The notes under the pieces were generated by a model. That model made no database searches, was not told the origin of the DNA, and saw only the letters and a list, made by a program, of their open reading frames with translations. Position numbers and translations under genes: made by a program. From Saccharopolyspora sp. NFXS83 (GTDB lineage: Bacteria > Actinomycetota > Actinomycetes > Mycobacteriales > Pseudonocardiaceae): a stretch of 64,000 nucleotides of DNA. The stretch lies in contig NZ_JAPFGB010000027.1 in assembly GCF_026241095.1 (NCBI RefSeq), positions 1-64,000 on the forward strand, given 5' to 3'. Position 1 is the stretch's first letter. Each line of letters starts with the position of its first letter. This document shows, piece by piece, positions 9,786 through 17,803 of this stretch.

Positions 9786-11345
9786 CTACAACGGCATGGT
9801 GCTGTGCTTCTTCGGGGGAATTTCCTGATGCTTGGTCGCCAGCAGGCGCAGGGCGCGGCTCAGGTGCGCGCGCGTCGCCGACGGGCGGATCACGGCGTCG
9901 ACGTAGCCGCGTTCGGCCGCGATGTACGGCGTGGCCAGCGTCGACCGGTACTCCTCGATGAGCTTCGCCCGCACCGCTTCCTCGGTTCCGTTCGCCGCGG
10001 CCTCCGCGAGCTCCCGGCGGTGCAGCAGGCTCACCGCGCCGGACGCGCCCATCACCGCGATCTCCGCCGTCGGCCAGGCCAGGTTCACGTCCGCCCCCAG
10101 GTGCTTGGACCCCATCACCGCGTAGCCGCCGCCGTAGGCCTTGCGCACCACGACCGTCACCTTCGGCACCGTCGCCTCGGAATACGCGTAGATCAGCTTC
10201 GCGCCGCGGCGGATGATGCCGTGGCGCTCCTGCTCCAGCCCCGGCAGATACCCCGGCACGTCGGCGAACGTGAGCAGCGGCAGGTTGAACGCGTCGCAGA
10301 ACCGCACGAACCGCGCCGCCTTCTCCGAGGCGTCGATGTCGATGGTGCCCGCGTTGTGCAGCGGCTGGTTGGCCACCACCCCGACGCTGCGCCCGTCGAC
10401 CCGGCCGAACGCGCACAGCATGCTGCGCCCGAACAACGGCTGCACCTCCAGGAAATCGCCGTCGTCGAGGACGAGTTCCAGCACCCGGCGCATGTCGTAG
10501 GCCTGGTGCGGCTCGTCCGGCACCAGCGCGTCCAGTTCCGCCGCGCGGCCCATATCGCCGGACGGGTCGTAGTCCGGCGGCGGATCCTGGTTGTTCGACG
10601 GCAGGAAGCCCAGCAGCGTGCGGGCCCAGTCGATCGCGTCCGCCTCGTCCTCGGCCAAGTGGTGGGCGTTGCCGGAGAGCTCGCTGTTGATCTGCGCGCC
10701 GCCGAGCTCTTCGGCGCCGGTGCGCTGTCCCGTCACCGAGCGCACCACCTCCGGCCCGGTGACGAACATGTGCGCGGTGCCGCGCACCATCACCGTGAAG
10801 TCGGTGATCGCGGGCGAGTACACCGCGCCGCCCGCGCACGGCCCCATGATCAACGACAGTTGCGGGATCACGCCCGAGGCCAGCGAATTGCGCCTGCCCA
10901 GCTCGGCGTAGTACGCCAGCGACACCACGCCCTCCTGGATGCGGGCACCGCCGGAATCGTTGATGCCCACCACGGGACAGCCGATGCGCATGGCCAGGTC
11001 CATGACCTTGAGCACCTTCTCACCGCACACCTCGCCCATGCTGCCGCCGAACACGGTGAAGTCCTGCGCGAACACGCACACGGGGCGCCCGTCCACGGTG
11101 CCGTGGCCGGTGATCACTCCGTCGCCGTAAGGACGTGGTTCTCCCGGCGCGTAGGACGTTCCCCGGTGCGCGGCGAACTCGTCGAGCTCCACGAAGGAGT
11201 CCTCGTCGAGCAGCAGCGCGATGCGTTCACGGGCGGTGAGCTTGCCCTTCGCGTGCTGCTTGATCCGAGCTCGCTGGTCGGCCTCGTGCACCGCCTCCCC
11301 GTGCCGCCGCCGCAGATCCTCGATGCGTTCCGCCGTGCCGGTCAT
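9786..11345 (-). CDS. Acyl-CoA carboxylase, carboxyltransferase beta subunit (AccD4/PccB type)
   Basis: This 519-residue protein has both halves of the biotin-dependent carboxyltransferase: N-terminal CoA-binding half with GGSMGEVCGEK and NDSGGARIQEGV, and C-terminal half with GYLPG and VMGSKHLGAD. It would carboxylate an acyl-CoA to the alpha-carboxy extender of the adjacent PKS, using a biotin-carrying alpha subunit encoded elsewhere. At the position where PccB has Asp and AccB has Ile (between GGGY and VMGSK), known to govern substrate choice, this protein has Ala; a less restrictive pocket is an inference. Its ATG overlaps the PKS stop by four bases. The layout matches accD4 next to pks13 in mycolate producers. 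Confidence 0.92.
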   Translation of the reverse strand: MTGTAERIEDLRRRHGEAVHEADQRARIKQHAKGKLTARERIALLLDEDSFVELDEFAAHRGTSYAPGEPRPYGDGVITGHGTVDGRPVCVFAQDFTVFGGSMGEVCGEKVLKVMDLAMRIGCPVVGINDSGGARIQEGVVSLAYYAELGRRNSLASGVIPQLSLIMGPCAGGAVYSPAITDFTVMVRGTAHMFVTGPEVVRSVTGQRTGAEELGGAQINSELSGNAHHLAEDEADAIDWARTLLGFLPSNNQDPPPDYDPSGDMGRAAELDALVPDEPHQAYDMRRVLELVLDDGDFLEVQPLFGRSMLCAFGRVDGRSVGVVANQPLHNAGTIDIDASEKAARFVRFCDAFNLPLLTFADVPGYLPGLEQERHGIIRRGAKLIYAYSEATVPKVTVVVRKAYGGGYAVMGSKHLGADVNLAWPTAEIAVMGASGAVSLLHRRELAEAAANGTEEAVRAKLIEEYRSTLATPYIAAERGYVDAVIRPSATRAHLSRALRLLATKHQEIPPKKHSTMPL

Positions 11346-17300: not shown

Positions 17301-17803
17301 AACTCGGCGTCGAACTCGTCCACACCATCGAGGAAACCGCCCGCACGCGGCAACTTCGCCAACGCCGGATCGGCACCGGCGAACCGCTCCCAGCGCCCCT
17401 CCGGCACCTCGCCGATGCCGTGCGCGCCGGACGACAGCAGGTCCCAATAGCCTTGCGGCCCCCGAGCGCCGGGGAACCGGCACCCCACGCCGACCACCGC
17501 GATCGGCGCATCCGGCTCCGGATCGCGCGGCCGGGGCAACGCCTCCGACTCCGGCGCGTCGCCGTCCGCACCCGCCGACAACGCGTCCGCGAGCCGATCG
17601 ATCGTCGGGTGCTCCCACAGCAGCGTCGGCGGCAACCGGCGCCCGACCAGGTCCTGCACCTGGCCCGCCAACGACACCGCCTGCCGCGAGGACAACCCGA
17701 ACTCCTGGAACGGGCGATCGGTCACGACCTCGCTCGCCCCGATCCCCAGCAACTCGGCGATCCAGCCCACCAACCGGTCGCGGATCTCGGCGCGATCAGG
17801 CAT
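11342..17803 (-). CDS. Pks13-like type I polyketide synthase with added DH-like, KR and extra carrier-like domains
   Basis: 2153 residues. Domains in order: ACP1 about 1-75 (Ser39 in FGLSSRQ); KS about 99-520 (Cys265, His400, His440); AT about 622-915 (GHSLGE, Ser710); DH-like about 972-1240 (His1004 and Asp1161 kept, but the usual Gly of HxxxG is Asp1008); KR about 1441-1620 (GGLGGLG at 1448, Ser1576, Tyr1589, Asn1593); ACP2 about 1700-1782 (Ser1742 in GLDSLM); a carrier-like domain about 1800-1872 with Ala1832 where serine should be; and TE about 1889-2143 (Ser1955, Asp1982, His2121). The N-terminal ACP and the TE (FHPAGG, LIDTILP, HHQYTSY) are hallmarks of Pks13, the mycolic acid condensase, which lacks DH and KR. 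The AT has no standard malonyl or methylmalonyl signature. It overlaps the acyl-AMP ligase by eight bases and the carboxylase by four, so it forms one operon with them. Confidence 0.93.

Follow-up and report, generated by a model that had tools for sequence, protein, structure and literature searches.

A Pks13-like synthase with its own ketoreductase domain, encoded in a cassette with an antigen 85-like gene in Saccharopolyspora, belongs to a widespread family

Introduction

Mycolic acids are regarded as characteristic of a single bacterial group, and how they arose is an open question. In mycolate producers, the product of the condensing synthase Pks13 is reduced by a separate reductase, CmrA/Rv2509 (PMC7065075). 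What, then, is to be expected of a Pks13-like enzyme that carries a reductase of its own? Such a synthase is encoded in a stretch of 64,000 nucleotides from Saccharopolyspora sp. NFXS83 (contig NZ_JAPFGB010000027.1, positions 1 to 64,000), hereafter referred to as the window. An earlier note, made from these letters alone, had likewise assigned the reduction of the Pks13 product to CmrA, in agreement with PMC7065075, and had suggested that the enzyme of the window could reduce its product in cis.

Here, we report that synthases of this kind, with built-in DH and KR domains, are real and widespread. Moreover, the cassette of the window, which comprises genes for a fatty acyl-AMP ligase (FAAL), the Pks13-like synthase, an AccD-like carboxyltransferase and a transferase resembling antigen 85 (Ag85), is probably responsible for the synthesis and export of an alpha-branched acyl ester resembling mycolates, as judged from its sequence.

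Results

The synthase carries a complete reductive loop in one chain

The synthase gene is a single uninterrupted open reading frame with an ATG start, and the 2153 residues of its product are arranged in the order acyl carrier protein (ACP)-ketosynthase (KS)-acyltransferase (AT)-dehydratase (DH)-ketoreductase (KR)-ACP-carrier without serine-thioesterase (TE). Pfam matches comprise ketoacyl-synt (residues 99-343 and 351-468), Acyl_transf_1 (622-935), PKS_DH_N (973-1074), PS-DH (1104-1245), KR (1442-1620), three PP-binding stretches and Thioesterase, beginning at residue 1889. By motif reading, the active residues listed in Table 1 are in place, with the attachment serines of ACP1 and ACP2 in GLSS and GLDS, respectively, and the nucleophile of the TE in GWSFGG; the third carrier reads GGTA and lacks the serine. 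In addition to the four residues of the KR, Asp1534 is present. The DH retains its His, Asp and Gln, and has Asp in place of the Gly in HxxxGxxxxP, which we take to be the usual DH motif. The domain series that the earlier note had read on this chain is thus borne out by the reading frame, Pfam and the motifs.

Relatives were taken from 60 genomes and from a scan of named records ranked on TE likeness, of which the best 80 of 342 were kept; the family counts given below describe this sample, not frequencies in nature. Neighbouring genes were sought within approximately 10 kb on each side, or less at contig ends. We refer to 22 loci as Pks13-labelled, namely 19 in Mycobacteriales records (Mycobacterium, Lolliginicoccus, Corynebacterium, Williamsia) and three, the metagenome-assembled genome (MAG) L115, L046 and L048, that were so labelled by locus likeness only; the label is no statement on the mycolate status of these organisms. 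All remaining loci constitute the family. Three loci with a TE identical to a kept row (L033, L049, L054) and the hybrid L044 were omitted from the counts, as were the partial loci L085 and L121 from those of architecture and motifs. For tree building, closely related sequences and outgroups on long branches were thinned out.

Of the 60 genomes, 17 have a TE match with an E value of 1e-40 or below, including the own genome and the Pks13-labelled G042 and G055. Among the 74 loci not labelled Pks13, duplicates removed, 60 encode both DH and KR, two DH only and ten neither, and two are partial. When only named records are considered (MAGs included), the corresponding family numbers are 45, 2, 9 and 2, and the Pks13-labelled loci comprise 18 with neither domain and two that are partial or split. 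None of the 22 Pks13-labelled loci, the two partial or split ones included, yielded a KR. The family extends over genera such as Actinopolyspora, Amycolatopsis, Actinokineospora, Frankia, Actinomadura, Streptomyces and Svornostia. Since 60 of these 74 loci share its architecture, the synthase is not a chance assembly. The serine of ACP1 is kept in 71/71 family rows and in 20/20 Pks13-labelled rows. The earlier note did not recognise this domain order; we likewise found no published account of the architecture or the cassette in the literature searched (partial coverage, with most subscription journals outside it). The order itself is widespread.

The synthase groups with Pks13

In the KS tree, the family and Pks13 (55 rows) are split with support of 99/95 from 20 other KS taken from modular polyketide synthases (PKS) of the own genome, cyanobacteria, proteobacteria and Streptomyces, and the KS of the synthase falls outside the modular KS. 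With fewer outgroup kinds the grouping is supported by 100/97 (KS) and 100/99 (KS+AT). The eight Pks13 rows form a separate clade of their own (100/100). Correspondingly, the seven best PDB relatives of the TE are all Pks13 (202 bits, 1e-58), followed by the TE of a non-ribosomal peptide synthetase (NRPS) with 96 bits. Grouping of both domains with modular PKSs, which the earlier note had named as contrary to its reading, was therefore not what we observed. Pairwise KS scores were dropped as proof of the kinship, since CurL and cyanobacterial KS score alike, and the trees were used instead.

The likeness to Pks13 extends to further parts of the chain. In a profile comparison, the family ACP3 matches the region preceding the TE of 21 Pks13 proteins (probability 98.3, E 1.4e-14); a serine-less ACP3 has been noted in Pks13 (PMC9900942). 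Moreover, the Pks13 linker from AT to ACP2 matches the front part of the family DHs (probability 97.3, E 1.6e-11), as determined with a profile of 24 family DHs picked mostly for intact residues. In the controls, reversed sequences yielded 2.9% and nine other PKS DHs 68% (E 4.6e-5), the sets differing in depth. When compared with single family DHs, the Pks13 linker profile reached 5.6e-14 at best (L050) and 6.5e-5 for the DH of the window. A remnant of a KR was not found in this region by profile comparison with the family KR (0.5%). These alignments suggest that the linker after the Pks13 AT is a remnant matching the front of a DH, in agreement with the inert pseudo-dehydratase DH* described for M. 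tuberculosis Pks13 (PMC11649247).

By the NCBIfam models, the synthase scores best with the Pks13 equivalog NF040607, at 1419 bits, and stays below its cut-off of 2100. It shares with Pks13 an N-terminal ACP beside a FAAL gene, the KS clade, AT, ACP, the serine-less ACP3, the TE type and an AccD gene downstream. However, Pks13 has the order ACP-KS-AT-ACP-TE with a DH remnant after the AT, whereas the synthase contains complete DH and KR domains. Because both the architecture and the NF040607 cut-off fail, the synthase is not a Pks13 by definition; with its KS in the Pks13 group, it should nevertheless work like one. The type of mycocerosic acid synthase and Pks2 has KS-AT-DH-KR in one chain as well, and ranked directly after Pks13 among the PDB matches (893 versus 971 bits); the NCBIfam Pks2 model yielded 1086 bits at a cut-off of 2400. 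This type is devoid of the N-terminal ACP and the TE.

The neighbouring genes resemble those of mycolate loci

The FAAL gene overlaps the synthase gene by 8 nucleotides, and the synthase gene overlaps the AccD gene by 4 nucleotides. Based on these overlaps we read the three genes as one operon, in which the FAAL is the adjacent ligase mentioned in the earlier note. The Ag85-like gene follows AccD after a gap of 155 nucleotides. The best PDB matches of the FAAL are 5d6j, 5icr and two FadD32 chains (473-457 bits), and the FadD32 model is its third-best in NCBIfam, at 566 bits and below the cut-off of 975. In gene order and predicted role, FAAL and AccD resemble FadD32 and AccD4, but neither qualifies as the respective equivalog.

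The nearest solved relatives of the Ag85-like protein in the PDB are the corynomycoloyltransferase PS1 (7e-46), Cmt1 (1e-28) and Ag85C (1e-20). Its AlphaFold2 model (pLDDT 91.5) matches best C. glutamicum mycoloyltransferase A, and in the Foldseek search the first 29 rows all belong to the Ag85/mycoloyltransferase family (including MPT51), with ordinary esterases only afterwards. The catalytic triad aligns onto Ser/Glu/His of Ag85C; across 38 aligned relatives Ser and His are invariant and Glu is kept in at least 90%. In addition, the protein shares with Antigen 85, PS1 and Cmt the HxWPYW stretch of Ag85C and a hydrophobic N-terminal segment (by eye). It differs from them in that identity in the structure alignments is 24-32% and no NCBIfam model is matched above its cut-off. 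Judged by its modelled fold and the triad, the protein is a member of the antigen 85 mycoloyltransferase family. The own genome contains a single further Ag85-like (PF00756-type) gene. The earlier note, which was right on the synthase, had passed over the Ag85-like gene and had given no strand.

In the 60 DH+KR loci we found FAAL in 45, Ag85-like genes in 39, AccD in 26, MFS transporters in 43, MMPL, secretory lipase and glycosyltransferase genes in 12 each, and cutinase in two. An Ag85-like gene accompanies 38 of the 45 FAAL-bearing DH+KR loci (25/30 in named records only) and nine of the ten loci without DH and KR.

Table 1. Features of the cassette, the synthase domains and one variant locus (positions in the window unless a locus is given).
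Feature	Position	Strand	Basis
Pks13-like condensing synthase, 2153 aa	11342..17803	-	Pfam, motifs, PDB and NCBIfam searches
ACP1 (Ser39), acceptor of the FAAL product (predicted)	17558..17803	-	Pfam, motif
KS (Cys265)	16244..17515	-	Pfam, motif, tree
AT (Ser710), GAGH specificity motif	14978..15970	-	Pfam, motif
DH (His1004, Asp1161, Gln1165)	13949..14911	-	Pfam, motif, dN/dS
KR with its structural half (Lys1552/Ser1576/Tyr1589/Asn1593)	12734..13936	-	Pfam, motif, tree
ACP2 (Ser1742)	12449..12691	-	Pfam, motif
ACP3, carrier-like, serine-less, in common with Pks13	12170..12421	-	motif, profile comparison
TE, Pks13 type (Ser1955)	11369..12166	-	Pfam, PDB search
FAAL, expected loader of the N-terminal ACP	17796..19604	-	Pfam AMP-binding, PDB, NCBIfam
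AccD-like carboxyltransferase for the extender unit	9786..11345	-	Pfam, PDB, tree
Antigen 85/mycoloyltransferase-like protein	8545..9630	-	PF00756, PDB, AlphaFold2 model, Foldseek
Divergent secretory lipase (PF03583), recurrent neighbour	19797..21338	+	Pfam
Sole DH+KR synthase of 60 with KR Tyr replaced by His	L073:4877-11041		

A proposed pathway to a mycolate-like ester

The following pathway would account for the cassette. A fatty acid would be adenylated by the FAAL and loaded on ACP1. A carboxylase containing AccD would yield 2-carboxyacyl-CoA, the unit of which the AT would move onto ACP2, and the KS would join the two chains to an alpha-alkyl beta-ketoacyl-ACP2. The built-in KR would then reduce the product to a beta-hydroxy acid, presumably as the 3R alcohol, Asp1534 being the mark of a B-type KR. 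The DH may take out water, giving a 2-alkyl-2-enoyl chain. The TE would hand the chain to a sugar or another alcohol, as the TE of Pks13 does to trehalose (PMC9900942, PMC7065075). After export, the Ag85-like protein would shift the acyl group to a further acceptor on the outer side of the membrane, for which arabinogalactan and trehalose are plausible candidates. We infer all of these steps, including substrates, product, acceptor and exporter roles, from gene order, domains, active-site residues and kinship to mycolate proteins.

With regard to the acceptor, a review describes arabinogalactan in some members of the Pseudonocardiales and Actinopolysporales, and both orders as devoid of mycolic acids (PMC6194230). 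The own genome harbors several arabinosyltransferase (Emb-type) genes; among 14 control genomes, only C. glutamicum has such genes.

Several observations weigh against a mycolate-like ester. Firstly, the lack of mycolates is described for the order of the host, Pseudonocardiales (PMC6194230). Secondly, FAAL, AccD and the Ag85-like gene occur all together in only 19 of the 60 DH+KR loci, seven of the 45 FAAL-bearing ones, among them all five of Actinopolyspora, show no Ag85-like gene in the stretch seen, and 15 loci without FAAL (Actinomadura and kin) have a different neighbourhood. Thirdly, none of the genes around the cassette matched MFS or MMPL transporters in the first 30 kb of the window; MMPL genes elsewhere in the genome say little, because 12 of the 14 control genomes have them as well. 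The contrary signals from AccD, AT and the pairwise KS scores are given below with the readings that they favour.

Ketoreduction is conserved and dehydration is not

The KR residues Lys/Ser/Tyr/Asn are all intact in 59 of the 60 DH+KR synthases, the exception being L073, in which Tyr is changed to His. The DH, by comparison, retains its His in 41/60 and both His and Asp in 38/60, as in the window; the His is missing in the 19 others, namely the Actinomadura group, L036, L039, L077 and L091, which, by eye, do not all lie together in the KS tree and have kept the KR. These numbers indicate that beta-ketoreduction is the conserved step, and dehydration not. In the KR tree, 45 family KRs together with that of the hybrid L044 are separated from 27 others with an SH-aLRT of 99 (quick tree, built without the partial loci L009-L029, which carry family KRs, the repeats L129/L131/L132/L135, the long branches L004/L136 and near-duplicates). 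Because the KR active site of the window is intact, reduction of the beta-keto product in cis is the straightforward reading, which supports the beta-hydroxy product envisaged by the earlier note.

The intact DH motif means that a dehydrated product may be formed. If the DH were a full dehydratase, the product would be a 2-alkyl-2-enoic acyl ester instead of the mycolate motif. To this variant of the proposed pathway, the chances of which overlap with it, we give appreciable, though clearly less than even, weight. It is favoured by the intact His and Asp and by the ratios of non-synonymous to synonymous substitution (dN/dS) against three congeners, which are 0.22-0.30 for the DH and 0.20-0.31 for the KR; by this measure, the DH of the window is under selection like the KR. 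On the other hand, the repeated loss of the His with retention of the KR, the Asp for Gly in the HxxxG motif and the deletion of the DH in Nonomuraea argue for the hydroxy acid.

As to the DH deletion, the Nonomuraea gerenzanensis synthase (L181:11566-17244) reads ACP-KS-AT-KR-ACP-TE, with an intact KR and a divergent Ag85-like gene alongside; the record is labelled plasmid at 11.85 Mb and is probably a chromosome. The opposite arrangement, DH without KR, was observed in L066:4379-11080 and L069:3585-9473 (Solirubrobacteraceae and a Patulibacter MAG), where 363-368 amino acids separate AT and ACP2; FAAL, AccD and MFS genes are present in these loci, and an Ag85-like gene is not in the locus.

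The length of the branch

At the malonyl/methylmalonyl position, the AT of the window reads GAGH. The same motif stands in 45 of the 72 family rows, one of which has a gap there, and HAFH does not occur in any of the 71 readable ones; the 21 readable Pks13 rows all read GASH or GAGH. The AccD column that we take to be the specificity position of PccB Asp422 holds Asp in the AccD5-like paralogue of the genome, and Ala in 37/37 family rows (three of them duplicates), as in 22/22 rows beside Pks13. AccD4 complexes carboxylate long-chain acyl-CoA (PMC4347857). Yet over its whole length the AccD is nearer to the propionyl-CoA carboxylase beta subunit, with 762 bits as against 531 for the chain labelled D4a, and in the AccD tree the family AccDs stand apart from those beside Pks13. 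Based on these two findings, which likewise speak against a long branch, a short (methyl) branch is possible.

A short branch would fit a secreted glycolipid of the glucolypsin/cycloviracin type, that is, a sugar carrying alpha-methyl or unbranched beta-hydroxy acyl chains and dimerised by the TE or the Ag85-like protein, instead of a wall-bound mycolate-like lipid. The long chain of glucolypsin bears a C2 methyl and a C3 hydroxyl group (PMC4365757), a family locus (L078) lies in Kibdelosporangium, the genus of the cycloviracin producer, and the glycosyltransferase genes of the 12 DH+KR loci are of the Actinomadura type. Nevertheless, we regard this product as unlikely for the window, where the AT motif and the AccD column are like those of Pks13 and AccD4 and unlike the AccD5-like paralogue, and the glycosyltransferase of the Actinomadura-type cluster was not matched beside the cassette in the first 30 kb.

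It is very improbable that the synthase is a common PKS of the modular or iterative kind with a conventional polyketide as its product, and that its likeness to Pks13 is due to chance or domain exchange. Pairwise KS scores do tie between Pks13 and CurL (474 versus 472 bits) and between cyanobacterial KS and Rhodococcus Pks13 (480-491 versus 483 bits), the KS listing in the PDB is headed by the multi-domain PKS 7zma (684 bits, with none of its individual stretches above the cut-off), AT relatives better than 1e-60 are confined to PpsA/PpsC and do not include Pks13, the genome is rich in modular PKS and L044 is an assembly line of another kind that contains DH-KR and TE parts like those of the family. 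However, the KS clade, the TE, ACP3 and the FAAL/AccD/Ag85 neighbours agree on the Pks13 link.

Implications for the origin of mycolic acids

The proposed mycolate-like ester bears on a wider question. Frankia, Nonomuraea and Thermoleophilia are held to be mycolate-free. Tentatively, and with somewhat less than even confidence, we propose as a joint scenario that many actinobacteria so regarded (Saccharopolyspora, Amycolatopsis, Frankia, Nonomuraea and even Thermoleophilia) use a self-reducing Pks13 to form a lipid similar to mycolates, either alpha-alkyl beta-hydroxy or 2-alkyl-2-enoyl, which an Ag85-like enzyme places on the envelope, and that the Pks13 of mycolate producers is a reduced descendant which lost the KR and most of the DH, leaving the inert DH*, and passed reduction to CmrA. 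A reduced descendant of a synthase with a reductive loop is suggested by the linker. An attempt to show Pks13 nested inside the DH+KR group failed: in the approximately unbiased (AU) test, a tree holding all other members together without Pks13 was not rejected (p 0.156 for KS, 0.338 for KS+AT).

If the scenario holds, mycolic acids would represent a specialised offshoot of a lipid system that is older among actinobacteria. A widespread sister system that includes a reductase of its own and a transferase resembling Ag85 would serve as a concrete comparison group for the origin of mycolic acids, would offer an explanation for the inert DH* and ACP3 of Pks13, and predicts an unseen lipid in soil actinobacteria.

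Variant loci and further neighbours

In the Actinomadura-type loci (L080, L081, L083, L087, L090, L092-L096, L099, L103, L113), the DH His is lost and FAAL is not found nearby. The downstream gene falls into a cluster with a zinc-binding dehydrogenase, as assigned by Pfam for L080 only. In most of these loci, genes for an EryCIII-like glycosyltransferase, assigned by Pfam for L045 only, and for an MFS transporter are located upstream; these loci perhaps make a different glycolipid. The Streptomyces-type loci (L079, L084, L101, L108, L119) show the order AccD-FAAL-synthase (no DH/KR)-Ag85, close in content to a mycolate locus, and three of the five have a cutinase-cluster gene nearby. Cutinase genes are also present in the Pks13 loci L046 and Rhodococcus ruber L182.

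The hybrid assembly line L044 (7315-19900) has its KR inside the family KR group and a family-like carrier-TE end, an apparent domain exchange. In L120:4722-11119, the Pks13 of Mycobacterium interjectum is split over overlapping frames, perhaps by a sequencing error.

As to the location of the synthase gene of the window, no plasmid record matched at least 80% of it. Downstream of the cassette, a PucR-type regulator gene (5892-7223) belongs to a cluster with members in 31 family loci, a number in which the window and duplicates are counted. At the other end, a SoxR-type regulator gene (21422-21886; 209 bits, cut-off 117) adjoins the lipase gene, and its cluster is again represented close to the cassette in three further Saccharopolyspora genomes.

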